Source: Leptolyngbya sp. FACHB-8
GTDB lineage: Bacteria; Cyanobacteriota; Cyanobacteriia; Elainellales; Elainellaceae
Reading direction: 5' to 3'
Assembly (NCBI RefSeq): GCF_014695575.1
Contig: NZ_JACJOO010000014.1
Location: 1-34,788, forward strand
DNA length: 34,788 nucleotides
Position 1 is the stretch's first letter, and the number at the start of each line of letters is the position of its first letter. This document shows positions 5,905 to 33,130 of the stretch, one piece after another. The notes under the pieces are model-generated. The model ran no database searches and had not been told where the DNA came from. It saw nothing but the letters and a program-made list of their open reading frames with translations. Both the position numbers and the translations under genes were made by a program.

Positions 5905-5991
5905 AATAGAATGAGAAACCGTAGTTTTCCATTCCACTCATAGCCCTCATTCAGCAACACCAAAATAGAGAAGGCTATACAGCACTGTGTG

Positions 5992-6053
5992 AGTTGATTA
6001 AGTACAGAAGGGAGTGTGTGGTGCCACACATTCCCTTCTGTACTTAATCAACT
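5992..6053. repeat. hairpin with 30-bp arms and 2-nt loop (family E)
   Basis: Arms 5992-6021 and 6024-6053 pair at 29 of 30 positions around a TG loop. The flanks TATACAGCACT (left) and GCTATAGTGC (right) resemble the outer sequence of the 1891 hairpin. The hexamer GCTATA occurs in direct orientation on both sides (5974, 6062), a possible trace of a duplication. Confidence 0.7.
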
Positions 6054-6600: not shown

Positions 6601-6750
6601 TAAATCTAGCAGCAATTCTCAGTATGAGCTTCAAAGCTGAGAGTTCGTGCCCGAAGGGCACGAACTCTCAGCTTTGAAGCTCGAAAATAGCCCGCCGAAG
6701 GCGGGCTATTTTCGGTTTGGATTTCAAAATGAGAATTGCTGTAAATCTAG
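6601..6750. mobile_element. family B two-hairpin element, copy 1, with 9-bp target duplication
   Basis: The element 6610-6741 (132 bp) starts with CAGCAATTCTCA and ends with its reverse complement (6730-6741). The 9-mer TAAATCTAG abuts both ends (6601-6609, 6742-6750). Inside are two perfect hairpins: 6626-6652 with 6656-6682 (27-bp arms, loop GAA) and 6682-6696 with 6700-6714 (15-bp arms, loop GAA). Its reverse complement aligns end to end with the copy at 18051, with the first hairpin conserved and the second different. No reading frame is inside. Confidence 0.88.
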
Positions 6751-6818
6751 AGATAGGGTGTGAAGAGCATGTAAAAAGGGGTACTTTGGTTATCTCAAAT
6801 TGAAGTGACACCGTTTTT

Positions 6819-6942
6819 AACCTGAGTTCGGGTTAAGGGCGTTTTCGAGTGCCGCGCGTTTCGCGGCACTCGAAAATGCTCATTTTGGCGTGCGCTTTGC
6901 GCACGCCAAAATGAGCACTGCAGCTTATCCCGAACTGAGGTT
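6819..6942. mobile_element. family A two-hairpin element, copy 1
   Basis: Outer inverted repeats 6819-6837 and 6924-6942 (AACCTGAGTTCGGGTTAAG type) pair at 17 of 19 positions. They enclose hairpin 1 (6842-6856 with 6862-6876) and hairpin 2 (6877-6895 with 6899-6917, loop TTT). It is inverted relative to the copies at 20116 and 32996. It ends 55 bp beyond the 3' end of menE. Only short T-runs flank it, so no target duplication is certain. Confidence 0.8.
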
Positions 6943-6997
6943 TTTTATGTGAAAACTGCTCAGAATGGCAGCTTCATATCAGTTTGGAGTGACCAGC

Positions 6998-8341
6998 CTA
7001 TTTGCTTAACTGGGATTCTTGCTTCCCTTCTATGTGTCGTTGGGCGATCGCCTCAAGAGCAGCGCGATTGAGTTTCCCCTGAGGGGTGCGGGGCAGGGTT
7101 AGTACAGGAATCCAATGTTTTGGGTGTTTGAAGCGGCTGAGGTGAGGGGCAAGAGAGGCAAGGATTTGGGTTGGGGTGACCGTGGAAGGGGCGGGAACAT
7201 AGATGGCTGTAATTGCTTCACCCCAATGGCGATCGCCGACCCCTATCACTGCTACATCCTCGACTAATCCCGTTGCACGAATAGCCGCTTCCACTTCAGC
7301 TGGAAATACATTCTCGCCACCCGTAATAATTTTGTCGCTGGCGCGTCCCCTCAAGTGTAAGCGCCCAACCTCATCTATACAACCAACATCATCCGTTTTG
7401 AAAGCCTCACCGTTTTTGAAAGATTTGGGGAAATATCCAAGAGCGAGGGACTTCGCTTGGATGTGAACAATCCCCGACTCAAGCGTTATCTGAGCGTGAG
7501 GAAGAATTTGATACCCACTTTTATGCAACAAGAAATCGTCGGGCTTTTGAGTAGCAACCTGGGAGGCCGTTTCCGTCATGCCATAGGTAGGAGCAAGGCG
7601 AAGCCCATGATGGTGAGCCTGTTCTAGGAGTGCCGGCCAGGGCGGGGCACCACCCAGGAGAATCGTGCCAAACTGCTGGAGCCAGGAAATCGTTTCAGGT
7701 CGCTGAATCAACCGTTGTAATTGGGTCGGCACCAGAGATAGGAAAAAACCTGCTGGGTCAAAGGTTGGCAGCACACCAGCTTCCAAAGATTTGAAGGGAT
7801 GAATAGCGAGGGTGCCCTGGGTAAGGAGCGATCGCAGTACCTGCATCAACCCGCTGACATGGTAAAGGGGCAACACGCAGCAGGAGTGAATAGGCGAGCA
7901 TTCGAAGAATTGTTGAAAGCCCCAAACAGAAGCGCCAAGGGTGCTCCAGGTGTGCGTGGCAAAGCGGATTTGTCCAGAAGTGCCGCCCGTAGGAATCAGG
8001 ATGTGGGGAGTCGGAAGTAGTAAGGGGGCAAGGGGGTGCGGCAGTGCAGGAACAGAGGTGTCAGTCAGCGTATGGGTGGGGCGGGTGAGGTCAAGCGCCT
8101 GCTCCCATTCCCGAGGGGACCAGTGAGGGTTACCCAGGATAGCGGTATGGTGGGCCGCAACGGTGGCAAGAAAGCTGGCGAGGAAAGCAGCAGAATCCGC
8201 TTCGGCCAGGAGGATGGAGCTGGAAGTAGGGAGCGCGGTCAGTTCCACCAGTCGTTTGTGAAACTGCGTTCTAAAGTGATTTGGGTCGAGGCCGATGAGC
8301 CAATCGCGGTCTAGGGCGTGTTGGAGGAGAGGCGATGCCAT
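6998..8341 (-). CDS. menE: 2-succinylbenzoate-CoA ligase MenE
   Basis: Activates o-succinylbenzoate with ATP and CoA in phylloquinone (vitamin K1, the photosystem I quinone) synthesis. This is a 447-residue ANL-superfamily enzyme. The P-loop PTGGTSG is at 118-124, YGMTETAS at 253-260, TDDVG at 316-320, RGRASDKIITGGENVFP at 331-347, and the catalytic C-terminal lysine in PQGKLNR at 423. The frame extends upstream to 8518, but the added residues read as proline/arginine-rich non-homologous sequence. The ATG at 8341 (MASPLLQHALDRDWLIG) gives the family length and starts within the end of menC, overlapping it by 31 bp, so the two are cotranscribed and probably translationally coupled. Confidence 0.93.
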   Translation of the reverse strand: MASPLLQHALDRDWLIGLDPNHFRTQFHKRLVELTALPTSSSILLAEADSAAFLASFLATVAAHHTAILGNPHWSPREWEQALDLTRPTHTLTDTSVPALPHPLAPLLLPTPHILIPTGGTSGQIRFATHTWSTLGASVWGFQQFFECSPIHSCCVLPLYHVSGLMQVLRSLLTQGTLAIHPFKSLEAGVLPTFDPAGFFLSLVPTQLQRLIQRPETISWLQQFGTILLGGAPPWPALLEQAHHHGLRLAPTYGMTETASQVATQKPDDFLLHKSGYQILPHAQITLESGIVHIQAKSLALGYFPKSFKNGEAFKTDDVGCIDEVGRLHLRGRASDKIITGGENVFPAEVEAAIRATGLVEDVAVIGVGDRHWGEAITAIYVPAPSTVTPTQILASLAPHLSRFKHPKHWIPVLTLPRTPQGKLNRAALEAIAQRHIEGKQESQLSK

Positions 8342-9282
8342 AGGGTTGCGGGGTCGGAGCTGTGGAACCCGTCGTTGGGGAACCAGCGCTGGGTACCCAG
8401 GCCGGGAACGCGCTGGGGGTAAGGGAGGTTCGGCAAAAGGCGATGGGTGAGATATTGGTGAGCGATCGCCGTTTCGAACACGGAGGATAGTACCACAGCA
8501 GGACGGTGCTTCTGGCAAAAAGTTTGTAAATCCTGCGGGAAGCCAGCGATCGCTGCCTTCACCACAAATACCCCACGCCAGCCCTGGTGATAATAACGCT
8601 TCAGGTCAGCCAGGGTCGCCACAGACTCATCCAAGGCAATGGGGGTGGGAAAGCGATCGCCCAATTTCTGCATCGCCTCTACCTGATGGGCCGAGAGCGG
8701 CTGCTCTAAAAATTCAATTTGGGGGTAGTCAGCACAAGCATCAAGCCACTGCTCAGCCTCTTCCAGAGACAAGCCTCCATTCGCATCCAAACGGAGGCTA
8801 GCCTCTTGGGGCAGCTCAGCCAGCAAGTTTCTCAAGGTTGCAATTTCCTCCACTACAGGAGCCACACCAATCTTCCACTTAAAGGTGCGGTAATCGCTTT
8901 CCCAATAGGGTTGCCAGGCCGTGAAGGCTGCTAGTCCAGTAGGTAACAATGCACAGGGAAGTGACGATGGAACCAGCTCAAGGGGATGACACAGCGTTTC
9001 CCAGGCGATCGCCAGGCCAAACTGACAGGCAGGATGGGTACTGGGAATAGCCGCAAGCGTGGGAGGGGAGAGGCGATCGCCCAGACCGCGACAAAGCGTT
9101 TCTGCGTCCTCTAATGTTTCGCTGCCAAACCAGGGCAACGGAGCAATTTCACCAAAACCAACTCGACCGTTTTCATCTTCTAGCCGTATCACAATGCCCT
9201 GCCGTTCCCGCCATACCCCATGATGGGTCTGCAATGGCTGACGAAAGGTGCGTCGGTAAATGCACCATGCGAAATGAACCAT
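8311..9282 (-). CDS. menC: o-succinylbenzoate synthase MenC
   Basis: Dehydrates SHCHC to o-succinylbenzoate, the step before MenE. It is an enolase-superfamily protein of 323 residues. The catalytic set is visible: K135 and K137 in FKWKIG, metal ligands D166 (LRLDANGG), E193 (EFLEQPL) and D218 (ALDES), and K242 in FVVKAAI. The start ATG has a GAGGTG Shine-Dalgarno-like sequence close upstream on the minus strand. A 24-bp-arm hairpin (9303-9353) sits immediately upstream, and its outer arm may pair with this GGTGAA sequence. The first gene of the menC-menE pair. Confidence 0.94.
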   Translation of the reverse strand: MVHFAWCIYRRTFRQPLQTHHGVWRERQGIVIRLEDENGRVGFGEIAPLPWFGSETLEDAETLCRGLGDRLSPPTLAAIPSTHPACQFGLAIAWETLCHPLELVPSSLPCALLPTGLAAFTAWQPYWESDYRTFKWKIGVAPVVEEIATLRNLLAELPQEASLRLDANGGLSLEEAEQWLDACADYPQIEFLEQPLSAHQVEAMQKLGDRFPTPIALDESVATLADLKRYYHQGWRGVFVVKAAIAGFPQDLQTFCQKHRPAVVLSSVFETAIAHQYLTHRLLPNLPYPQRVPGLGTQRWFPNDGFHSSDPATLWHRLSSNTP

Positions 9283-9302
9283 TTCACCTCATCAAAGCTT
9301 AC

Positions 9303-9353
9303 GCATTTTTGTTGTGTGGGGTGGGCGTCGCCCACCCCACACAACAAAAATGC
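9303..9353. repeat. perfect 24-bp-arm hairpin just upstream of menC
   Basis: Arms 9303-9326 and 9330-9353 are exact reverse complements around the loop GTC. Outer arms TTCACC (9283-9288) and GGTGAA (9363-9368) also pair. Read as menC leader RNA, the outer stem would include the GAGGTGAA ribosome-binding region. No target duplication is evident. Confidence 0.72.
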
Positions 9354-9485
9354 TCTACGTATGGTGAACTTGCGTCAGTCCTACTCATGATTGCAATACC
9401 CAGCGGTTGTAGCAACAGGAGAGTTTAGAATTATCCTCCACACTCTCCTTTTGCTGCAACCAAATTCAATTTCCTGGGGTTCAGA

Positions 9486-9548
9486 CCTGTGGATGGGGTG
9501 TGATGGAAGGGGCAGAAGTGCCCCTTCCTATCACACCCCATCCACAGG
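9486..9548. repeat. hairpin with about 29-bp arms, loop GAAG
   Basis: Left arm 9486-9514 and right arm 9519-9548 pair throughout, apart from one extra base in the right arm. The arms are G-rich and C-rich respectively (GATGGGGTGTGAT and its complement). Flanks show no duplication. Confidence 0.7.
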
Positions 9549-9978
9549 CTTTAGATATAACCAACAAGCTCAACCATAAATTTATGCAACAGACTAATAC
9601 TTTGTGATGAAGGCATTAGTCTATCTCTCGAAAGAGTAACCGTTAACGATGAGCTTGCCAGAAAATTTTAACCAGACTTAATAGGTCTTTATACCCACCA
9701 AGAAGCCTGATTTTGCGACGTTTTGGAGCATAAATGCTGATAGGAACTCCGTCTAAAGTTAAGTTTTGTTAAATCTCCATCTATCAAAAGGCAGATGACA
9801 GGAGCCGGGGATCATTGCCTGACAAGCTTAATACTTCTTGAGGTCGATCCACCGCTCCGTAGGTACCCCTAATCGGGTGATGTCGATCTTTGGGTAAGCT
9901 CCTAAGGTGAAGGTAAGAGCAGTGTTTAGCTCTTATCGAAAACGTTCCCTTCTAACACATTTGACTAAGGAGTCTCGT

Positions 9979-10068
9979 ATGTTCGTCGCACTTCTCCTGT
10001 TTGCCGGTTATGGTGCTGCTTGTGCCATTTTCATTAACCAGGTTGCTGCTCCCGCAGAAGAAAAGTAA
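9979..10068 (+). CDS. 29-residue single-pass membrane peptide
   Basis: ATG at 9979, preceded by AAGGAG nine bases upstream, encodes a 29-residue peptide: a hydrophobic, Ala/Gly-rich helix (residues 2-19, FVALLLFAGYGAACAIFI) followed by a short charged tail ending AEEK. The pattern fits the small single-span proteins of cyanobacterial thylakoid complexes, but it does not match PetG, PetL, PetN, PsaI, PsaJ, PsaM, PsbX or Psb30 as I know them, so I give no name. The strong ribosome binding site and ideal hydrophobicity argue that it is real. It is convergent with the ABC transporter gene, 62 bp away. Confidence 0.6.
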   Translation: MFVALLLFAGYGAACAIFINQVAAPAEEK

Positions 10069-10130
10069 ACTTCCTCTGCTAATCACGCTTCCAGGTATTT
10101 TCTGGCATCCAATCGCTGCATCAACGCCGT

Positions 10131-12149
10131 TCAGGAAAATACATTGGCATCCACTTGATAGTTCTCTAAAGGTGACATCTTCCAGGTACCATCGCCGTGT
10201 AGCTCCAACACATAATTGTGATATTTGAGTAAGCTTGGCCGATGGCCGACACTGATAAAGGTTGTATCCTTACTCTTCAACTGATCATAGAGCCGTTGTT
10301 CATTACCTAGATCTAGAGCGCTGGTCGCTTCATCCAGTACCGCATAACGAGGATTAGTTAAGAGTAAACGGGCAAACGCAAGCCGTTGTTGTTCTCCTAG
10401 AGAAAGGACGGTTGCCCAGTCCAGTTCCACATCAAAACCCCCGACTCGGTCGGGTAAATCCTTTAAGTTAACCTGTTGCAGTGCTGCATGGAAGTCATCG
10501 TTATTCACGGTGGCATCCACCAGATTCGGATACAGCAACTGATCACGTAGAGTTCCCAGTAGCATGTAGGGCCGTTGGGGTAGGAACATCATCTCCGTGA
10601 GACCAGGCCGTACAATGCGTCCATCTCCACTGTTCCAAAGCCCAGCGATCGCCCGCAACAGGGAACTCTTCCCCGCTCCGCTGGGGCCAACGATCACAAG
10701 ACCCTGGCCCGCCTGTAGCGTGGCGCTTAAGTTCTGCACTAGCATTCGCTGGCTACGGGGGGTTAGTAGAGTAACCCCTTCCAATGCAATTCGATCGTCC
10801 TCTACGGTTTGAATTTCCGCTGTGGTATCTGCGCGCTCCTCTTCTTGCTCGTTGAGTACTACAGCAAAGGTTTCTAGACGGTTAACCCCAGCCGCAAATT
10901 CGCTGAGCCGGTTGATTTGTGTCACCACTAGGGCAAAGGCTTCAAAAATTTGGGCAAAAGCAAAGTTCGCCTGACTAATATCCCCGAACTGAATCTCGCC
11001 TGCAAAGTATTTGGGAGCCAGAATAATAGACGGCAGAATGTAAGTGGCGTAACGATAGGGAGTACGGAAGAAGGCCAAATTTCGCTGCCAACCGATCAGG
11101 AAATTGTAGTTCCGTAGAACTTCAACAAAGCGCCGTCGTAGTTGTCCAACTTCTTGATCCTCACCCTGGTAAAAGGCGATGGATTCAGCATTATCCCGAA
11201 CATGCACCAGTCCATAACGGAAGTCGGCCTCTTTCCTGAGCTGATTGAAGTTCAGGGCAATTAGCCGACGTCCTAAAACGGCAATGACGCCTGTACCAAA
11301 AATGGCGTAGCCTACCAGGAAAATCGCCAGAAAACCAGATTTTGATAGCAGGATTCCGGTAAACGACAAGACGTCGATGAACGCCCCCAGGAAGATCAGG
11401 AAAAACGACAGACTGTTTTCTGTAAAGGCGCGAATATCCTGAGAAATCCGCTGGTCTGGGTTATCGATTTCACTGTTGCTGTTGATGTCATAGTAGGCGC
11501 GATCGGCGAAGTAACGCCCCAAAAACTTACCCGTCATCCAATCCCGCCAGCGTAGCCCAAGCAAGCCCTCTGTGTACTGGTAGTAGACAACAAAGGGAGT
11601 GGCAATCGCAAAAACCCCGGCATAGACAATAAAAAATCGCCAGAAGGTAGGGGCATCTCGTTCTGACAGCGCTGTGGTGAAGTAGTTCCCCACATAGCTG
11701 ATCATCACGTTCATGCCACTAACGGAGAGGGACAATGCCAACAGCAACACGAGAAAGGCCCACTGCTTCCAGCGGGGTAACACGTTTCCCCGAGCGGCAA
11801 AAAATCCGAGTGCTGGAATTAGAAGCCCGGCCAACACCACAAAGATAAATGGTGGGCTAAAGATCCCGCGACTAATGCTAACCATCCCCCCGGCCGTTTG
11901 TCCCATAAACTCTGGGAAGAGCAGCTGCAACAACAAGGTAATCGCGGCCACAACAATGGCTAGAGTCGCGAATAGGAACAGAATCAAAAGTGCAATGAGG
12001 ACAAAGAACACCTTTCCGCCATTGCGCTCGGTGGGATACCAATAGGGTTGGGCGATCGCCACAAAGCGGTGCCACAATTGCGTGTCAAAGCGGTTTAAGC
12101 GATTTTCTGGGGAGGTGGGAGTGTTACCGTTACCGTTACCGTTGGTCAT
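10131..12149 (-). CDS. SbmA/BacA-YddA type ABC transporter (fused permease-ATPase)
   Basis: A 672-residue half-transporter of the ABC_membrane_2 family (COG4178). Members include bacterial YddA, the ATPase-fused BacA relatives that import peptides and corrinoids, and peroxisomal ABCD proteins. About six membrane segments lie between residues 46 and 292. The nucleotide-binding domain has Walker A GPSGAGKS at 488-495, the signature LSLGEQQR at 582-589, Walker B AVLDE at 603-607 and H-loop His636. It should dimerise in the cytoplasmic or thylakoid membrane. The frame reaches 12188, but I start at the ATG 12149 (MTNGNGNGN), as the upstream 13 residues look non-coding. A short NG repeat opens the protein. 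Substrate unknown. Confidence 0.88.
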   Translation of the reverse strand: MTNGNGNGNTPTSPENRLNRFDTQLWHRFVAIAQPYWYPTERNGGKVFFVLIALLILFLFATLAIVVAAITLLLQLLFPEFMGQTAGGMVSISRGIFSPPFIFVVLAGLLIPALGFFAARGNVLPRWKQWAFLVLLLALSLSVSGMNVMISYVGNYFTTALSERDAPTFWRFFIVYAGVFAIATPFVVYYQYTEGLLGLRWRDWMTGKFLGRYFADRAYYDINSNSEIDNPDQRISQDIRAFTENSLSFFLIFLGAFIDVLSFTGILLSKSGFLAIFLVGYAIFGTGVIAVLGRRLIALNFNQLRKEADFRYGLVHVRDNAESIAFYQGEDQEVGQLRRRFVEVLRNYNFLIGWQRNLAFFRTPYRYATYILPSIILAPKYFAGEIQFGDISQANFAFAQIFEAFALVVTQINRLSEFAAGVNRLETFAVVLNEQEEERADTTAEIQTVEDDRIALEGVTLLTPRSQRMLVQNLSATLQAGQGLVIVGPSGAGKSSLLRAIAGLWNSGDGRIVRPGLTEMMFLPQRPYMLLGTLRDQLLYPNLVDATVNNDDFHAALQQVNLKDLPDRVGGFDVELDWATVLSLGEQQRLAFARLLLTNPRYAVLDEATSALDLGNEQRLYDQLKSKDTTFISVGHRPSLLKYHNYVLELHGDGTWKMSPLENYQVDANVFS

Positions 12150-12439
12150 AGGAGCAACCAGAGGAGAGCACAAGCAGTCAAGCCACACTCATGATTTGCA
12201 CAAGAACCCTAAAACCCAGTCTTGCCAGCACAAAATGATGACAGCACCAGGTTTTAAGTTTTAGTACAAACTACGAGCATAGGAATAATACGGGTGGATG
12301 AGCCATTTGTAACTGCCATTGTATAGCGATCGCTATTTTTGTCAGGGCAGAAGCAGATGGGAGATGCTCAGTTCCCTCCGCTGTAAACTGTTGATGTGTT
12401 TGTCTGAAGGACACGAAACTGTAGCGGTTACAGCAGGTT

Positions 12440-13321
12440 TTAAGGCAAATAGGGCTGGACAGCTGAGAGGACTAACTCAGGGGTCTCTAAATGGGGGAGA
12501 ACACCGGATTGGGCGATCGTACAGAAACCTTGAATCGTCTTCGGATTCAACGCCGCCAGCCGTTGCCCCTGGGGTAGGGTTGAGAACCAGGCCCGTTCAC
12601 CCCATACCAGAACTGTTGGTACCGTTAGATCGGGCATATAGCGGGCCAGATCAAAGCACAGGTCTCCCCGTAGAGAAGCCAGGGCACTGTATTCGGCATT
12701 GAGTTGCTGTGCAGAGGCCAGATAAGCTGCGACCATTTCAGGGGTAATGCGATCGGTGCGGGCAAAGAGAAACCGCTCCATAAAGTTGCGGATTGCCAGT
12801 TCGTTCGCGGCTCCCAGGGAGTAAATGGCCTGGTTGAGTCCAGGGGTACGCGCCAACTGAGCCGCCATGTTTTGAGCATAGCTTTCACCAAAGTCGCTGA
12901 AGCCTGACGGGCATACCAGAATGAGCTGCCGAAATAACTCGGGTCGCCGGATGGCAAGTCGTATCGCCAACCCCCCAGTTAGGGACGTGGCAAAAACAAT
13001 GGGTGGCTCTGAGGCAACGGACTCCAGCAATTCCGTTAGTTGCAGGAAATAGTCTTCAGGTTGGTAGTCGCGCTGCAAATGGGTTGATTGACCCCAACCA
13101 ACCAAATCTGGTGCGCAGATGGGAAAGCGATTTGCCAGCGCCGGATAAAATTTCGACCACTCGTAGGCCGAAGATCCGCCTCCCAGGCTATGGAGAAACA
13201 CAAGTGTTGGGGCACTCTGGGGTGGATGCCAGAGTGCCCCCGTATTGCGATAGCAGGCCATGACGCCGAGGGTAGTGGCGATCGCCCCCTGCTCAAACCC
13301 GGGCGGTTGAAATTGCAGCAT
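12440..13321 (-). CDS. alpha/beta-fold hydrolase with unusual nucleophile elbow
   Basis: A 293-residue alpha/beta hydrolase. The oxyanion segment FLHSLGGGSSAYEW is at about 43-55 and DLVGWGQST at 72-80. The nucleophile elbow reads FATSLTGG (Ser113), so the usual first and last glycines of GxSxG are Ala and Thr. His is in GVLPHLETPE near the C-terminus. The usual acid site after VLVWGE reads RAWFS instead of containing Asp, so the acid may be supplied elsewhere or be missing. The ATG 13321 follows AAGG by eight bases and is preferred over an upstream in-frame start at 13366. It follows the McdB-like gene by about 105 bp on the same strand. Substrate unknown. Confidence 0.85.
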   Translation of the reverse strand: MLQFQPPGFEQGAIATTLGVMACYRNTGALWHPPQSAPTLVFLHSLGGGSSAYEWSKFYPALANRFPICAPDLVGWGQSTHLQRDYQPEDYFLQLTELLESVASEPPIVFATSLTGGLAIRLAIRRPELFRQLILVCPSGFSDFGESYAQNMAAQLARTPGLNQAIYSLGAANELAIRNFMERFLFARTDRITPEMVAAYLASAQQLNAEYSALASLRGDLCFDLARYMPDLTVPTVLVWGERAWFSTLPQGQRLAALNPKTIQGFCTIAQSGVLPHLETPELVLSAVQPYLP

Positions 13322-13426
13322 AGGGTTACCTTGCCAAATTTTAAGTGCCAAAAACTCGACACTCAAACGTTAAAATCAAAGATTTTTTGAGGGCTCAATG
13401 ACCCTCAAAAAATCCTTAACAGACTG

Positions 13427-14098
13427 CTAATCGACCCAGCCAATGTCATCATTGCTGAGCTGAGTGGAGGGAATTTCAATTGCAACCGGGTGCTGCAAGA
13501 CACGCCATAACTCGGTTGAAGCACTGACCTGAACTTGCCGTCGCAGCGTCCCTGGAGGCGGCTCGGCTGGTGCTGGGGGAGCAGCCGGTGGCTGCTGTGC
13601 TAAGGGCGCGGGCGGCGCAGCCGGGGGGGCAGGGGGAGCGGCTTTACGGGCGGTTTCTTCGGCCTGTCGTTGCTCCGTCAATCCCCGAATCATTTGTTTG
13701 GCATCCTCCAGCTCTTTGCGCAGCTGGTCGGAACTCCGCAGATCTGCCTGGAGCTTCTGGACAGTGGCGTCCCGTTCCGATAAATCCTTTTGCAGCGTTT
13801 CAATCTGGCGTTGCAGAATACCTTCCTGGGTCTGGGCTTCCTCCAGTTTCGACTGAAGATCCGCGAGGGTTTCCTGCAGCGCAGCAACCTCGCCGTGACC
13901 ATCTTGCTCTGCCGGAGGAGCTTCAGGGGTCGCCTCTGGCTTGGCGGCAGACTTGGATGCAGCGGGTCGGGCCATTCCCTTGGCCTTAGACCGGCTAGCT
14001 GCAGGCTTAGCCGGGGGTTTTTCCGTTGTATCCTCCTCATTGCCGGGTCGCTGCGCTTCCTCCCGCAGAAGATCCGACAGTCGTTTTCGCGTTGCCAT
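13427..14098 (-). CDS. McdB-like coiled-coil partner of the adjacent ParA ATPase
   Basis: A 223-residue low-complexity protein. The basic N-terminus MATRKRLSDLLREEAQ is followed by a charged Ala/Pro/Lys region (20-68), a heptad-rich, glutamine-rich coiled coil (about 70-150), a proline/alanine tract (153-183) and a short C-terminal segment ending IGWVD, with Trp221 third from the end. This layout of a disordered basic N-terminus, Q-rich coiled coil and Trp in the last few residues is that described for McdB, which distributes carboxysomes with the ATPase McdA. The ATG overlaps the stop of the ParA gene by one base (TAATG), so coupling is expected. The McdB call is an inference from architecture; another ParA-linked adaptor is possible. 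Confidence 0.6.
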   Translation of the reverse strand: MATRKRLSDLLREEAQRPGNEEDTTEKPPAKPAASRSKAKGMARPAASKSAAKPEATPEAPPAEQDGHGEVAALQETLADLQSKLEEAQTQEGILQRQIETLQKDLSERDATVQKLQADLRSSDQLRKELEDAKQMIRGLTEQRQAEETARKAAPPAPPAAPPAPLAQQPPAAPPAPAEPPPGTLRRQVQVSASTELWRVLQHPVAIEIPSTQLSNDDIGWVD

Positions 14099-14748
14099 TA
14101 GTCCCTCCAATCTCGCTGAATTTCTTCTGCTACCCGCCGGTAGTCGGCTTCGGCTTCCCGTGCATTTTTACCACGCCATTGCAACACTGACATCCCATCC
14201 AGGGCAGCCCGTTCATGGGCTTTATAGGCACGTACAAAGGCATGGCAGGCCGGGATACCTAACTCCATTAGAGTCTTTTGTGCCTCCAGGGCTTCTCCCA
14301 GGCTACGGGGATCGACCCGTGTTAGCAAGACCCGATAACTAACTCCGGTGGGAATGACGGCTTCTCGCACGGTTTCGATCAATGCCGTCAAATCCATCGG
14401 GGCCGGGGGAGTGGGCAATACCAGATAGTCGGCGGCAGGAACCACCGTCCTTATCGCATCCGATGCTAAGGCCGGCGGAGTATCTACTACCACAACAGAA
14501 TAATCTGACAGTTGCCGCAATTCCTGAAGCAAAACTGGATCTGTTTCCTGGGCCAGGTCAAACCCCAGGTCTTTAGAGCGGCGCTCAAACCACCAGGTTG
14601 CCGATTTTTGCGGGTCAGAATCAACCAGCAAAACCCGGTGATTCTCAGCCAAACTAGCAGCCAGGTTGACCGATGTGGTGGTTTTGCCCACCCCGCCTTT
14701 GCCATTGAGTACGACCAGCACCCGAGGAGAGCGCCTTGTGGCTGCCAT
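14098..14748 (-). CDS. ParA/MinD-family ATPase, McdA-like candidate
   Basis: A 216-residue Walker-type ATPase. The deviant Walker A GKGGVGKTT is at 16-24, with the signature lysine K17; switch I DSDPQKSATWWFERR is near 45-60; Walker B is VVVVDTPPA. Such proteins position plasmids, chromosomes or large complexes by ATP-dependent binding to the nucleoid. The next gene encodes a coiled-coil protein with McdB features, so this may be a type 2 McdA, the class that keeps the signature lysine. No parS-like site or other partition gene is visible. An in-frame TTG at 14778 after AGGA is an alternative start; I prefer the ATG just before the conserved core. Confidence 0.85.
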   Translation of the reverse strand: MAATRRSPRVLVVLNGKGGVGKTTTSVNLAASLAENHRVLLVDSDPQKSATWWFERRSKDLGFDLAQETDPVLLQELRQLSDYSVVVVDTPPALASDAIRTVVPAADYLVLPTPPAPMDLTALIETVREAVIPTGVSYRVLLTRVDPRSLGEALEAQKTLMELGIPACHAFVRAYKAHERAALDGMSVLQWRGKNAREAEADYRRVAEEIQRDWRD

Positions 14749-14921
14749 TGGTGTTTTCGTCTTCTGTCGCTGCGCCAAGTGCGTCCTACCCTATCGCTTG
14801 CTATGGGCGAATGATAGCGCTAGTTGTGGGGGATGCGATCGCCTTCATCATTTAACTTGAGAATTCCATACTCTTGATAGGGGAATCGATTCCCCATCAA
14901 CAGCAATAAAAAACAAGAAAA

Positions 14922-15284
14922 TTACTCTACCCCATTGCCAAACGGCTCCAACATGCAGCCATGAATGCGCCAGTCGCCGTCTGGCTGCCGCTGCATGATG
15001 TAAATAGCACGCACAATTTGACCATGCGGCGACATCAGCACCACTGTTTGGGCGGGTAGACCTTCCATATCCACAATGCCCTCAAATAGCACCGAGCGAG
15101 GGCGGTAAACGGCCACGTAGGCCGTCTTGACCATTTTCATGAAGGTCTCAGGATCACCAAACTGGGCCTGAATACTGGGGCTGGCAAAGGCAAAGGCGGC
15201 GGCGGCATCATCCCGCTGGAAGGCATCCAGTTGTTGGGTAATGAGTTGGCGGATGGTGTCGCGATCGCGCTCCGTCAGATACAT
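14922..15284 (-). CDS. DUF4864 domain protein
   Basis: A 120-residue protein with the NTF2-like DUF4864 pattern: TIRQLITQQLDAFQRDDAAAAFAFASP near the start, FMKMVKTAYVAVYRPRSVLF in the middle, and GDWRIHGCMLEP at the end. Function of the family is unknown; NTF2-like folds bind small molecules or act as adaptors. The frame extends upstream to 15374 with an arginine-rich segment that does not fit the family, so I start at the ATG 15284 (MYLTERDRDTI). No signal peptide. It lies 173 bp upstream of the ParA-like gene on the same strand. Confidence 0.85.
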   Translation of the reverse strand: MYLTERDRDTIRQLITQQLDAFQRDDAAAAFAFASPSIQAQFGDPETFMKMVKTAYVAVYRPRSVLFEGIVDMEGLPAQTVVLMSPHGQIVRAIYIMQRQPDGDWRIHGCMLEPFGNGVE

Positions 15285-15440
15285 GGCAACAGTAGGGGTA
15301 GCAAGACGATGGGCCAGGAGGTATCCCCTTCGTCGGCAGACAGTTGCCACTCTTAAACCCAGGGGGTTACCCACTTTTTATTCTACGATTCTGAGCAGTC
15401 TGCACCGGATTTTGCCAGGGCCTGCTTCAGGGTCTGCTTT

Positions 15441-15486
15441 AAAGGGTATTTTTTCGTACGCGTCGCACCCGAAAAATTGACCCTTT
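15441..15486. repeat. family H hairpin, copy 1
   Basis: AAAGGGTATTTTTTCG (15441-15456) faces CGAAAAATTGACCCTTT (15470-15486). GGGCCTGCTT precedes it at 15419-15427, recalling the GGGCCTGTTTTAAAG end of the copy at 21779. It lies just downstream of the GH116 gene. Confidence 0.5.
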
Positions 15487-15520
15487 CATTTCCGGGCGAT
15501 CGCCAACGCCTTTCCCACCG

Positions 15521-17944
15521 CTATCCGGCTCCCCACAGTTCATATACCGCCCAGATGGCCATCGCCCGCAGGTAGTGGCTGGCTCGAAACGTTCCGACCG
15601 ACGTAATCGCCTCTGGGGTACGGAACTGAAGCCCGTTATCATACACCTGCTGCACCACGGTTTCTGTCAACCGCATGCCCTCATCCCGCAAGCCCATCTG
15701 AATAAGGAACGCCGCCAAACCGAAGTTAATGCCCGTCCAAACCTCCAGGGGGTGGGTGTCATTGGGATTCACCGGAGAACCGTCCGGTCGCAAGCCATTG
15801 GCTGCCCCAAACTGGCCTCCATGAAATTTGAGGAAGCAAGTGTCATACACCGTCTTGAGGGCCGATCGCGCACAATCCTCAGGCACTACATGGGGCAGAT
15901 TCAGCAGGCGCGCGTAGAACTGACCGCAGAGCTGATCTGCCATCACCACATCGGAGCCACTGCCCGTATCCAAACGATAGTAGGAGCCATTCCAGAGGGC
16001 ATCGTGATAAATCGCGCGGGATTGGGCCAGCCAGTCCTTCCAACGGCTCATCTCGGCAGGCTCAGAGTCCAATTCCTTCGCAATGGCGATCGCGGTTTCC
16101 AGGGCTGCAATCCACAGCCCACCACAGTAGGCACTAATCCCCTGCATGCGCCAATCATCAAAGGTCTGATCTGGCGCACCGGAGTTTTCAGGGATGCCAT
16201 CACCATCCAGGTCAAAGCTTTTGAGGTAATCCAGAGCCGCGACGATAGCGGGCCAGCACTCCTGTAAGAAAGCGCGATCGCTCCCCCCCGTCATCACAAA
16301 ATCGCGGTAGACCAGCAGCACAAAGTCACTGCCCAGGTCTTTCCAAAGGTTGCAGTCCTGGTAGCTGGTGTAGTTGGTCCGCTCCCAGGGGTGCTCGTTC
16401 GGAGCCCCCAAGTCGTGAGGAGTCGCGTTGGCAACCTTGCGGGGCACATCGGGGCTCTCTTGCCCCTGGGTGAAGTAGTAGCCGATTTTGCGCAGGCGGG
16501 CATCCTCTGCGGGAATCGAGCGAGCAAAGGCTCGCATCACCGCCTTTTCCAACTCGGGAAACAGATGCAGGAGCGCGAAAGAACCATAGAGGCGCACATC
16601 CAGGCTTTCGTACCAGCGGTAGTCCAGGCATTCCACCACAGCGAATTGGCCGACTGGGTCGCGATCGCTGGCGGCACTCCACAAGGTTGCACCATCGGTC
16701 AGGTCATACAACTCGTTGAACAGGCCCATCTTGAACGTGTCCGATAAGTCAGTACGGCTCAAAATAGGCTGTTGCCATTGCTGAATTTGCTGCTGCCAAT
16801 CCTGCCAGTGAACCAGCCCCAGACGGGCGATCGCCCAGCTATTCTCGCCATTCCGTTCAAAGAAGTCGGTATATCGCCGAAAGTAAGTCACCCCCTTGGC
16901 AAACTCCATGACCGGAAAATCCCAGGACAGCACAAAGGGAATCTGGCGGGTTTCACCTGGGGCCAGGGTAAAGCGGAGGGCGATCGCACACCCGACCTGC
17001 TCCCCTTCTCCTGCGGGTGTAGCGTCATGAACGTTGGGTAGAGAGCCATCCTGAGAGAAGGGTCGCCACAGCTCTGCCCCATCCCCGGCCGGGTTCCAGC
17101 GGGTGTGGTAAAACAGTTCGTCAGTGGGATGAAGATGGGTCGCGATCGCCCACTCTCCCTCACCCTCTTTGACCTCCTGCCCATCCAGGCGGCGACGACG
17201 CATAACACAGCCCACGAGTGGCCCGTCCTGCACCCATTCCGTAAAGTTGCCCGTGCTGTCTCCTAGAGGCGGTTGGTACTCGTAAACTGGGCTGCCATCA
17301 TCCCGCACACGCACTTCGGGAGCGGCCAGCGTGTTCGTAAACCAGCCCACCAAGTTTTGCCAGGTGAGGGCAAGACTAAGGGTCAGGGGTTGGTCTGTGG
17401 GGTTGTGAGCTGTCCACAAAAATATGGCGAGCGGGTAGCTGGTTTCCTGATAATTGTGAGGCAGGATGGGCGAAAACTGCTCGCAGGTCACCTGAGCCTG
17501 AAGCACCTTTTCATAGGTGAACCAGCTGCGAGGATAGAGTGCCTGGTACATCCCAGTGCCATCCCCCTGATCCTCAGTCTTTGCAACAACCCCGGCTGAC
17601 GTTGTCGCAGGGTACCAATTCCAACTGGCGAGGGAACCATCCTCAGCGGCTTCCGTGCTGAGCGCGTAAGCCTGGGTGCGATCGCCCCCCTGCTCGAAAA
17701 TACTGAACTGACAGGCCGGAATGGATTTGAATACATGCTCCCCAGCGTCAATGTGCCAGAGGTTAAAGTCACCTCGGTGCGATCGCCCGATACACCCAGC
17801 CCCAAAACCACCCAGGGGCATCCCGTGAAATGGCCCATCGTCCAGGTTGCTGGCGTAGCGAACGGTATAGGGCTTCTCCCAACCCAGGCCAATGGGACGA
17901 GACCAGGCGCAGGTGGGAATGGTGGGCAGTGTCGAGGAATTCAT
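15521..17944 (-). CDS. GH116 family glycoside hydrolase (GBA2-like beta-glucosidase/glucosylceramidase)
   Basis: An 807-residue enzyme of family GH116, annotated in bacteria as non-lysosomal glucosylceramidase. It has an N-terminal beta-sandwich region (about 20-345; MPLGGFGAGCIGRS, FNLWHIDAGEH) and a C-terminal (alpha/alpha)6 catalytic domain. By motif comparison with human GBA2, the nucleophile is E438 in VVECLDYRWYESLDVRLYGS and the acid/base D592 in ENSGAPDQTFDDW. The C-terminal WTGINFGLAAFLIQMG is typical. There is no signal peptide, so it should act in the cytoplasm, perhaps on glucosyl lipids or glucosides. An in-frame start at 17983 is possible. Divergent from the DUF2993 gene, with a family B element between. 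Confidence 0.88.
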   Translation of the reverse strand: MNSSTLPTIPTCAWSRPIGLGWEKPYTVRYASNLDDGPFHGMPLGGFGAGCIGRSHRGDFNLWHIDAGEHVFKSIPACQFSIFEQGGDRTQAYALSTEAAEDGSLASWNWYPATTSAGVVAKTEDQGDGTGMYQALYPRSWFTYEKVLQAQVTCEQFSPILPHNYQETSYPLAIFLWTAHNPTDQPLTLSLALTWQNLVGWFTNTLAAPEVRVRDDGSPVYEYQPPLGDSTGNFTEWVQDGPLVGCVMRRRRLDGQEVKEGEGEWAIATHLHPTDELFYHTRWNPAGDGAELWRPFSQDGSLPNVHDATPAGEGEQVGCAIALRFTLAPGETRQIPFVLSWDFPVMEFAKGVTYFRRYTDFFERNGENSWAIARLGLVHWQDWQQQIQQWQQPILSRTDLSDTFKMGLFNELYDLTDGATLWSAASDRDPVGQFAVVECLDYRWYESLDVRLYGSFALLHLFPELEKAVMRAFARSIPAEDARLRKIGYYFTQGQESPDVPRKVANATPHDLGAPNEHPWERTNYTSYQDCNLWKDLGSDFVLLVYRDFVMTGGSDRAFLQECWPAIVAALDYLKSFDLDGDGIPENSGAPDQTFDDWRMQGISAYCGGLWIAALETAIAIAKELDSEPAEMSRWKDWLAQSRAIYHDALWNGSYYRLDTGSGSDVVMADQLCGQFYARLLNLPHVVPEDCARSALKTVYDTCFLKFHGGQFGAANGLRPDGSPVNPNDTHPLEVWTGINFGLAAFLIQMGLRDEGMRLTETVVQQVYDNGLQFRTPEAITSVGTFRASHYLRAMAIWAVYELWGAG

Positions 17945-18041
17945 GCAGAGATGGCTAGGTGAAACGGAACGTCTTCCACTCATACCCCATCTTGGTGATC
18001 AGGAGCGCAAATCAGAGGTAAATCCGAAAGCACAGCACACG

Positions 18042-18191
18042 TTGTTTCTTCAGCAATTCTCATTTTGGAATCCAGTCGGAAAACCGCTCGCCTAGGGCGA
18101 GCGGTTTTCCGACTTCAAATCCGAGAGTTCGTGCCCGTAGGGCACGAACTCTCGGATTTGAAGCTCATAATGAGAATTGCTGTTGTTTCTT
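18042..18191. mobile_element. family B two-hairpin element, copy 2, with 9-bp target duplication
   Basis: The element 18051-18182 (132 bp) has perfect 14-bp terminal inverted repeats (CAGCAATTCTCATT and complement). The 9-mer TTGTTTCTT abuts both ends (18042-18050, 18183-18191). Inside are hairpins 18074-18092 with 18096-18114 (19-bp arms, loop TAG) and 18113-18136 with 18140-18163 (24-bp arms, loop GTA). It lies between the divergent GH116 and DUF2993 genes. Confidence 0.9.
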
Positions 18192-20115: not shown

Positions 20116-20238
20116 AACCTCAGTTCGGGATAAGCTGAAGTGCTCATTTTGGTGTGCGCTCTCGCACACCAAAATGAGTGTTTTCGAGTGCCGCGCAACG
20201 CGCGGCACTCGAAAACACCCTTAACCCGAACTCAGATT
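20116..20238. mobile_element. family A two-hairpin element, copy 2
   Basis: Outer repeats 20116-20134 and 20220-20238 pair at 16 of 19 positions. Hairpins are 20143-20158 with 20163-20178 (loop CTCT) and 20180-20196 with 20200-20216 (loop AAC). Its strand matches the copy at 32996 and is opposite to 6819. The sequence is about 90 percent alike to copy 1 by eye. A further small hairpin (TTATTTGAACGTGCGC and complement, about 20240-20275) follows directly. The rest of the gap to 20534 holds nothing I can support. Confidence 0.8.
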
Positions 20239-24241: not shown

Positions 24242-24334
24242 AACCCCAGGCTTACGCCAGTCCACTACGAAAAAGCGTAAGTCGGTGCTTTGTTACCTGT
24301 AAAACTCAGATTTTTTTGCTATTGCCCTGTACTG

Positions 24335-24420
24335 ATACCCAATCAATGTGAAGCTGCACAGAATAGTGTGGGACGCATAGCGTCCCACACTATTCTGTGC
24401 AGCTTCATAAAAAACGGTAT
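24335..24420. mobile_element. family D palindrome, copy 1
   Basis: Ends ATACC / GGTAT bracket 86 bp. The core is a hairpin of 28 perfect bp (24349-24376 with 24380-24407, loop ATA). The outer part of each arm (TGAAGCTGCACAGAAT) is identical to family D copy 2 at 28111, while the inner part differs. No target duplication is evident. It lies about 110 bp before the gamma-glutamyltransferase start. Confidence 0.72.
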
Positions 24421-28110: not shown

Positions 28111-28202
28111 ATACTAAATCAATATGAAGCTGCACAGAATGAGGGTGGGGGCGCGTATGCGCCCCCACCCTCATTCTGTGCAGCTTCATATAAAAACGGT
28201 AT
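28111..28202. mobile_element. family D palindrome, copy 2
   Basis: Ends ATACT and GGTAT bracket 92 bp. The hairpin has 33 perfect base pairs (28122-28154 with 28159-28191, loop GTAT). The outer half equals copy 1 at 24335; the inner half (GAGGGTGGGGGCGC) replaces AGTGTGGGACGC, on both arms. Flanking similarity to copy 1 continues as AATCAAT on the left and AAAACGGTAT on the right. Confidence 0.75.
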
Positions 28203-28356
28203 AAGGAGTTGTATTTCTTTAGAAACTATGGCTTCTTACATTATTTATCTGTAATGCCAATATTTAATAGCAATACAAACCCTACACTTTAAGTTCTCTA
28301 AAGTTTATAAGTGCGATCGCCTTACCATTTGTATCATCTGAATTAATGAATTGTTA

Positions 28357-32984: not shown

Positions 32985-33130
32985 ATTTTAGCCCTAACGT
33001 CAGTTCGGGATAAGCCGAACCGCCCATTATTGCGTGCGCGTTGCACACGCAATAATGGGCTTTTTCGAGTGCCGCGCTTCGCGCGGCACTCGAAAAAGCC
33101 CTTAACCCGAACTGAGGTTATTTTAGCCCT
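32985..33130. mobile_element. family A two-hairpin element, copy 3, with 11-bp target duplication
   Basis: The element 32996-33119 (124 bp) is flanked on both sides by ATTTTAGCCCT (32985-32995 and 33120-33130). Outer repeats of the AACNTCAGTTCGGGATAAG type pair at the ends. Hairpin 1 (33022-33036 with 33046-33060) differs in sequence from the other copies on both arms. Hairpin 2 (33060-33077 with 33081-33098, loop TTC) is conserved. GGGC at 33057-33060 can pair with either hairpin. It lies between the convergent ABC operon and acetyltransferase gene. Confidence 0.9.

Follow-up and report, generated by a model that had tools for sequence, protein, structure and literature searches.

A hairpin-rich MITE family with 9-bp target duplications in the cyanobacterium Leptolyngbya sp. 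FACHB-8

Two family B copies in the window

This study deals with a 34,788-bp stretch of DNA (the window), positions 1 to 34,788 of contig NZ_JACJOO010000014.1 of Leptolyngbya sp. FACHB-8 (assembly GCF_014695575.1), and with a short repeat, here called family B, of which it contains two copies. Copy 1 (6610–6741) has a YGGT-family gene as its neighbour on one side and, on the other, a gene for an AMP-binding enzyme that is next to a menC-like gene. The neighbours of copy 2 (18051–18182) are a GH116 glycoside hydrolase gene and an LmeA-like gene. Each copy is 132 bp long, has perfect 12-bp terminal inverted repeats (TIRs) of the sequence CAGCAATTCTCA, and is flanked by a perfect 9-bp direct repeat of its own. 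The two copies are very probably members of a high-copy family of miniature inverted-repeat transposable elements (MITEs) that derives from a ~1.4-kb insertion sequence (IS) with a DDE transposase, and that inserts with a 9-bp stagger.

Copy 1 is assigned to the plus strand, given with the GTATG-type end first. Its exact TIRs occupy 6610–6621 (plus strand) and 6730–6741 (minus strand), and the target duplication TAAATCTAG adjoins it on the left (6601–6609) and, as an exact match, on the right (6742–6750). Hairpin 1 (6626–6682, plus strand), located by repeat comparison and folding, has a perfect 27-bp stem and the loop GAA at 6653–6655. Hairpin 2 (6682–6714, plus strand), located by folding, has a 15-bp stem and the loop GAA at 6697–6699; on its 5' side it abuts the end of hairpin 1. 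Copy 2 lies on the minus strand, opposite to copy 1, with which it forms a 132-nt inverted match that is 83% complementary. Its exact TIRs are at 18051–18062 (plus) and 18171–18182 (minus), enclosed by the duplication TTGTTTCTT at 18042–18050 and, identically, at 18183–18191. In this copy, hairpin 2 (18075–18113, minus strand; from sequence and folding) has the loop TAG on the plus strand (18093–18095), and hairpin 1 (18113–18163, minus strand; from repeat comparison and folding) has a perfect 24-bp stem with the loop GTA on the plus strand (18137–18139). On re-reading the sequence, coordinates, lengths, shared TIRs and both 9-bp repeats were all as described in the original prediction, a note made from the letters of the window.

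The exact TIR sequence occurs four times in the window, each time as one of the four element ends. Elsewhere in the window there are six matches with two mismatches, compared to 3.5 (standard deviation 1.9) expected from shuffled sequences. One strand of each copy, folded with DNA parameters, gave z = −17.2 and −17.9, and none of 200 shuffles was as stable. The window had been predicted to lack a transposase; none was found among the 20 of its 72 listed open reading frames that were scanned with Pfam, and a transposase profile was negative for the whole assembly. Rfam gave no match anywhere in the window. GCGATCGC motifs (HIP1), together with the host organisms of the closest plasmid transposases, point to a cyanobacterial genome.

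A high-copy family with 9-bp target duplications

In the genome as a whole, the exact end pair at a distance of 114–144 bp was found 75 times (72 in the directional form), and a reversed-pattern control was found 0 times. We gathered 102 copies with at most one mismatch per end, which comprise these 72, two others of the 75, and diverged copies. Most are 132 bp long (79 copies); the 23 of other length include six one-hairpin copies of 82–84 bp. The 9-bp duplication is exact in 72 of the 102 copies, and has one mismatch in 18, two in 5 and more in 7, while a control with shuffled partners gave 0.017 exact duplications per 102 copies. Duplications of 8 or 10 bp fail as alternatives, and the adjacent outward 9-mers match at best at five of nine positions. 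The 82–84-bp subfamily carries exact duplications in five of its six copies. According to the original prediction, copies elsewhere without matching duplications would speak against transposition; the numbers above leave the prediction standing. Chance repeats were ruled out by the TIR counts, the shuffled duplications and the comparison of folding with shuffles.

The 72 exact targets have an A+T content of ~60%, and no fixed motif was seen in them. After joining of the flanks, only 7 of 98 copies interrupted a stop-to-stop frame of at least 150 codons, compared to 210 of 320 random points. This intergenic bias is strong, and comes from target choice or from selection.

Several copies interrupt other repeats. 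At locus L038, a copy lies within a repeat of another family (family A, described below). Removal of the element and one 9-mer gives a gap-free match of 124 bases, of which 99 are identical, whereas the match has nine gaps when the 9-mer is kept. Locus L026 behaves likewise (1 versus 10 gaps), as does L013 (2 versus 11 gaps), where the interrupted repeat is itself an older copy of family B. Because removal of the element with one 9-mer restores the interrupted repeat at L038, and the other two loci agree, these elements were inserted with a 9-bp duplication. In the sister genome G001, the region of copy 1 is syntenic and lacks the element, with intergenic DNA too diverged for a base-level comparison, and the flanks of copy 2 match different contigs.

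Family B is thus short, multicopy and without a transposase gene, has TIRs and a target duplication of fixed length, and shares its ends with an autonomous element, as is characteristic of MITEs. That the elements are non-autonomous, as originally predicted, is borne out by the exact duplications, the gap-free empty site and an IS in relatives with the same ends and duplication length. The prediction had also proposed a cut-and-paste enzyme making 9-bp staggered cuts. The 9-bp cuts agree with the duplications, the empty site and the related IS, but target duplications cannot separate cut-and-paste from copy-out. Family B is a MITE family, a non-autonomous IS derivative. It adds new members to a known kind of element and is, as a MITE, ordinary.

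At L044:501-773, two family B copies have a common 9-mer (ACACTACAA, present three times), and the second copy is a chimera: its hairpin 1 combines arms of two subfamilies, with the junction at the loop. At L065:324-990 there are three tRNA-Val (tac) genes, the first two of which are separated by an intact family B copy (501-632) with a decayed family B end next to it.

Across the class, 39 of 388 genomes, from 17 of 157 genera, carry the 114–144-bp form. In a second genus, the 9-bp duplication is exact in 9 of 26 copies of G267, 6 of 10 of G174 and all four copies of G220 (four of six were fetched), with one mismatch in 10, 2 and 0 further copies, respectively. A 22-mer scan of named genomes matched eight contigs, three of them without an end pair. 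Two Nostoc contigs (L112:1746-1910 and L113:1612-1776) contain a 165-bp element with a CAGCAATTCTCATTTTGAAATC end, similar flanks and no 9-bp duplication. Outside the cyanobacteria, a Candidatus Competibacter contig (L107:7365-7507) has a near-matching end pair of 143 bp and a 9-bp duplication with two mismatches, and two contigs of archaeal metagenome-assembled genomes (L108:5603-7642 and L111:2019-4058) have TIR-like ends 2,040 bp apart, without a 9-bp duplication.

The partner insertion sequence

A 17-bp end was searched for in 98 genomes, of which 35 (besides our own) belong to the same genus or family, and gave matches in 40 of the 98. In G023, G018, G015 and G062, two ends lie 1,410–1,420 bp apart around a transposase gene, which in G062 is broken into two frames. 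In G023 this IS (L128 and L129) is 1,420 bp long and shares its 12-bp ends with family B, and the 9-bp target duplications of these two copies are exact. Its transposase has 435 amino acids and a weak match to DDE_Tnp_1 (21.6 bits, cut-off 23); by our own assignment, D127, D216 and E338 are candidate DDE residues among the invariant columns.

We compared the transposase with named IS families by means of A1, an alignment of eight related transposase proteins. DDE_Tnp_1_assoc, a domain that marks ISAs1, gave the G023 protein 17.4 bits (cut-off 32.3) and matched three of the eight A1 members at E 0.01 (best 9.7e-6). The NCBIfam model for IS4 gave 20.5 bits (cut-off 152), with weak matches to six of the eight members (best E 4.5e-6). 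One relative is annotated as ISNCY; no ISNCY model was among the NCBIfam matches of the eight A1 proteins at E 0.01. A PDB sequence search gave no match.

Transposases 47–50% identical to that of G023 are encoded by an ISNCY-annotated IS on plasmid Cy782202 of Gloeothece verrucosa (L165) and by plasmid ISs of Nostocales. The latter, from Calothrix, Anabaena and Nostoc (L162–L164), are 49–50% identical to the G023 protein in A1. They have the ends (CAGCAATTCTCATTTT) and exact 9-bp duplications in common with the MITE, but unlike the MITE they are full ISs of 1.87–1.89 kb with a transposase. A relative in Saccharobesus (33% identity) has CAGCAATTATTGGT ends and an exact 9-bp duplication. The plasmid end search demanded a near-exact duplication of 8–10 bp and thus selected in part for the duplication, but not for any particular end sequence; with this search, no ends were found for L165.

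A profile of the eight related transposases found nine full-length matches in G023, which served as positive control, and none in our own assembly (window included), G001, G013, G058 or G059. In our own genome, PF13808 and the G023 transposase as query gave no matches either. Among the own-genome loci, only two TIR pairs 200–4,000 bp apart had a near-matching 9-mer: one, at L101, is a nested insertion, and the other is truncated where locus L001 ends. Of these loci, 43 (L031–L073) extend no more than ~500 bp from the copy, too short to reveal a 1.4-kb IS. Thirteen loci with unpaired or crowded ends, viewed by eye, showed contig breaks, decayed or truncated copies and nested insertions, and no IS; of the 308 inexact TIRs counted in this genome, 100 were listed. 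The search for an IS with the same ends, as proposed in the original prediction, thus succeeded in relatives and on plasmids but not in the assembly itself. The best reading is that the MITE outlived its helper in this genome, although possibly the helper resides on unassembled DNA. Judging from sequence comparison, the MITE would have been mobilised in trans by a related IS, which this genome would then have lost.

Some results weigh against a MITE family derived from this IS. Twelve of the 102 copies lack a 9-mer match within one mismatch. Of the five TIR pairs of ~1.4 kb, two have an exact duplication (both in G023), the one in G062 has one mismatch, and those in G018 and G015 have none. 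Ten short elements (131–154 bp) from relatives include five with an exact duplication, one with one mismatch, one with two, and three with at least six. Furthermore, the G023 transposase scores under the curated Pfam and NCBIfam cut-offs, and no ends were found in two of six plasmid relatives. On the other side stand the common ends, the 9-bp duplications, the empty site and the partner IS in relatives, all observed directly, as was the lack of a detected partner in the assembly. An alternative explanation might be a dispersed REP/REPIN-type repeat, moved by a RAYT-like enzyme, since family B is short, palindromic, largely intergenic and present in many copies. We consider this extremely improbable, because it is contradicted by the 9-bp duplications and by 12-bp TIRs that are common to an IS with a DDE transposase. 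To our knowledge, REPs and REPINs have neither target duplications nor the ends of such ISs, and are linked to RAYT.

Paired stem changes and inverted loops

The hairpins were compared in 77 canonical copies, leaving out the 23 copies of other length and two of the 79 copies of 132 bp (unrelated hairpins; a chimera). Hairpin 2 occurs as two subfamilies, with a AAAATAGCCCGCC stem and a AAAACCGC.CGCC stem, each in many copies. That one hairpin is wholly different between the two copies, as stated in the original prediction, reflects these two subfamilies; hairpin 1, there called conserved, varies between copies as well, with paired changes. Stem pairs are of Watson-Crick type in 3,354 of 3,465 cells. 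Of the 37 stem pairs that do not involve the shared arm, 19 occur as two or more Watson-Crick types, and 8 of these 19 include transversional swaps. Broken pairs comprise 33 G-T, 22 A-C and 8 other cells, a wobble excess that is not significant (p 0.18; the cells are not independent); counted by kind, there are 14 G-T and 14 A-C pairs.

The loops occur in both orientations. In hairpin 1 we found TAC in 25 and GTA in 21 copies, GAA and TTC in 9 each, GAC in 7 and GTC in 3, and other loops in 3. In hairpin 2 these numbers were 22 for AAA and 19 for TTT, 20 for GAA and 12 for TTC, and 4 for other loops. We then compared 24 copy pairs without any difference outside the two loops. In loop 1, 7 of these pairs showed an inversion, 13 had no change and 4 had a change of another kind; for loop 2 the numbers were 11, 11 and 2, respectively. 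Because the loops differ by inversion between copies that are otherwise identical, loop inversion seems frequent relative to substitution elsewhere in the element. As a control, we used the 91 other 3-mer segments of the element. In 85 of these no two copies were related by exact inversion, and in the other six 1, 2, 66, 69, 220 and 276 of 2,926 pairs were inverted. In the four larger of these segments the minority form was present in 1, 1, 5 and 4 of 77 copies, unlike the loops, which are near 1:1.

Both loop orientations were also found in the second genus. In G267, which has the same ends and unrelated stems, loop 1 is TAA in 10 and TTA in 5 copies, and GAA in 3 and TTC in 2; loop 2 is TAC in 7 and GTA in 6, and TTA in 6 and TAA in 1. 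In G174, loop 1 is TTC or GAA (3 each) or TTT or AAA (1 each), and loop 2 is AAC in 3 and GTT in 2, besides three single forms. From this tally 9 of 40 copies were dropped as they were not 131 bp long, and orientation is supported by pairing, with at least 22 of 26 and at least 20 of 25 pairs per copy. In the elements of this genus, both outer arms pair with the middle arm. Of the three 11-mers compared in the 31 copies, all are equal in 13, the middle one equals exactly one outer arm in 15 and neither in 2, and the outer arms agree against the middle in 1. This fits with changes that pass through the middle arm, although selection for pairing would look alike.

Strand switching between arms would be the simplest mechanism for the loop flips. 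Alternatively, the hairpins might be RNA or terminator structures under selection, in which the paired changes are ordinary compensatory mutations. This would agree with the 19 of 37 variable stem pairs, with the high stability of the folded strands (DNA parameters), and with hairpin positions that are maintained in unrelated genomes. Under selection for pairing, however, one would not expect unpaired loops to be present as exact reverse complements in almost equal numbers. Moreover, G-T wobbles are not in significant excess over A-C, transversional swaps occur in 8 of the 19 variable pairs, three families with the same ends (L130, L135 and L214) have no strong hairpin, and Rfam had no match in the window. 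We therefore regard selection on RNA as unlikely, and paired stem changes combined with flipped loops fit DNA strand switching better. Even less likely are the inversions to be a sequencing or assembly artefact of palindromic repeats. Our own genome is a draft of 95 contigs, and random choice by an assembler would also give a ratio near 1:1 among otherwise identical copies. Yet a 78-base contig overlap at one break suggests a k of ~77; as each loop lies at most 46 bases from one element end, a loop and its unique flank would share a k-mer. A stronger argument is that the same flips are seen in G267 and G174 copies that lie within contigs of 3.97 and 4.93 Mb, respectively. In addition, one loop 2 ratio of G267 is uneven (TTA 6, TAA 1), though in few copies.

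Length classes and hairpin positions

Lengths were analysed in 152 distinct elements of 114–144 bp, clustered by their interior into 11 families with the same ends. The modal lengths are 122, 122, 131, 132, 132, 132, 133, 141, 142, 142 and 143 bp; one mode is close (141 bp in 6 members, 131 bp in 5), and one family of two members is split between 122 and 137 bp. The modes are phased with R = 0.93 at 10.0 bp, a value that none of 20,000 uniform draws reached in this post hoc comparison. The modes fall at 122, 131–133 and 141–143 bp, a spacing of one turn of the helix, which would be expected if the two ends have to meet on one face of the DNA. A 154-bp element (L140) and the 143-bp pair of L107, both outside the length sample, fit reasonably. 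Phasing is weaker when all distinct lengths are entered once per family, with R = 0.45 and p 0.0016 at 10.5 bp and a best period of 11.8. The mobile 82–84-bp subfamily is ~1.5–2 bp off phase, and the 165-bp Nostoc element is a poor fit as well.

The clustering at 122, 132 and 142 bp might instead reflect common descent from a few founder MITEs. Some interior families are perhaps distantly related (e.g., L141 with L130), and the two largest have scattered minor copies of 117–137 bp. In contrast, two families each hold two length classes 10–11 bp apart (131/141 and 132/143), and the phasing survives hand-merging to nine or seven families (R = 0.94 and 0.92 at 10.0 bp, p below 2e-5 and 0.0002, respectively). 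The 143-bp TIR pair with its two-mismatch duplication in the Competibacter contig is a further point against common descent, which we consider doubtful.

Hairpin centres lie at 45 and 89 in our own family (3 copies), at 45 and 88 in G174 and G267 (2 copies) and at 45 and 87 in G012 (1 copy), with a single centre at 46 in G013 (2 copies). These positions are kept although the stems are unrelated between families. Because the three sampled families L130, L135 and L214 have the same ends without a strong hairpin, hairpins are probably not required for movement.

Tentatively, we propose that strand switching flips the loops faster than the rest of the element mutates, transfers changes from one arm to another, including via the middle arm shared by both hairpins, and so maintains the stems without selection on RNA. 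Independently of this, a transposase preference for end spacings that place both ends on the same face might confine MITE birth and hairpin turnover largely to lengths of 122, 132 or 142 bp, the hairpins being centred at about one third and two thirds of the element. We consider this combined account somewhat less likely than not. Loop inversions and length classes themselves are well supported as observations, and moderately so as mechanisms.

Other hairpin repeats

Family A is represented in the window at 6819–6942, 20116–20238 and 32996–33119 by two-hairpin elements of ~124 bp with unrelated ends (AACCTCAGTTCGGG). In the loci examined 25 copies were collected, with loops in both orientations and a 4-bp duplication suggested by eye. 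Its architecture is that of family B, with different ends. At L101:1758-2017 a family A element lies inside a family B copy with the 4-bp duplication CAAA, giving a 260-bp composite that retains its flanking 9-bp duplication with one mismatch. A third hairpin repeat, starting with TATACAGCACT, is present at 1860–1939 and 5976–6053, and similar sequence is found next to some copies of family B (L019, L034). At 24332–24407 and 28111–28205, ~3.8 kb from each other, the window has a pair of related perfect hairpins (AAGCTGCACAGAAT, arms of 28–33 bp).

Comparison with known systems

Family B can be compared with several known systems. The MITE Nezha is of similar size. Nezha is a cyanobacterial MITE (Zhou et al., 2008, cited in excerpts of PMC10969869), and the same excerpts describe bacterial MITEs as short, TIR-bounded, flanked by target duplications, intergenic, capable of stem-loop transcripts, and mobilisable in trans by ISs. 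Family B is likewise short, TIR-bounded, flanked by duplications and mostly intergenic. It differs from that description in its two near-perfect hairpins touching in a shared arm, both loop orientations, GC-rich stem ends and length classes that are spaced by one helical turn. Among the matches listed in the open-licence literature, judged by titles and abstract starts, none described this MITE family or loop inversion in bacterial MITEs, and the TIR sequence as search term gave only papers unrelated by title and abstract.

Paired changes in miniature mobile hairpins are not new. Excerpts of PMC3116915 report that compensatory changes on both hairpin sides are common in REPINs of Pseudomonas fluorescens. 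Like family B, REPINs are miniature, mobile, extragenic hairpin DNA with paired changes; unlike it, they are built from two REP sequences and are RAYT-linked, and loop inversion is not mentioned in those excerpts. In chloroplasts, small hairpin inversions of 5–50 bp have inverted repeats of 11–24 bp that form stem-loops (Kim and Lee, 2005, in excerpts of PMC12928735). Those concern plant plastids, whereas in family B one element is present about a hundred times in a single bacterial genome, and its arms change together. Template switching at quasipalindromes of Escherichia coli rewrites one hairpin arm from its partner, so that stems become perfect (excerpts of PMC7202029); that work used laboratory reporters, in contrast to the natural repeat family described here. 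As to element length, excerpts of PMC3464196 mention the helical-phase dependence of IS50 transposition (Goryshin et al., 1994) and a ~10-bp periodicity in the lengths of internal eliminated sequences of Paramecium. Our elements have a similar ~10-bp periodicity of end spacing, here in natural bacterial MITE lengths with one set of ends.

In the MITE explanation, the source IS would be ~1.4 kb long, with one DDE-type transposase that is weakly related to the DDE_Tnp_1 and IS4 models and has a relative annotated as ISNCY. This transposase would recognise the CAGCAATTCTCA ends, pair both ends over a short loop of duplex DNA, and insert the element by a 9-bp staggered cut into targets that are mostly intergenic and have no obvious motif. 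The element length may be set by helical phasing of its ends. The internal hairpins would be dispensable for movement, while strand-switch copying between their arms might keep the stems near-perfect and flip the loops. The copies thus form an apparent natural record of hairpin template switching, in about a hundred related hairpins of one genome with loop orientation as readout. They also appear to record a helical-phase limit on bringing transposon ends together at short distance. Both processes are usually studied with engineered constructs.

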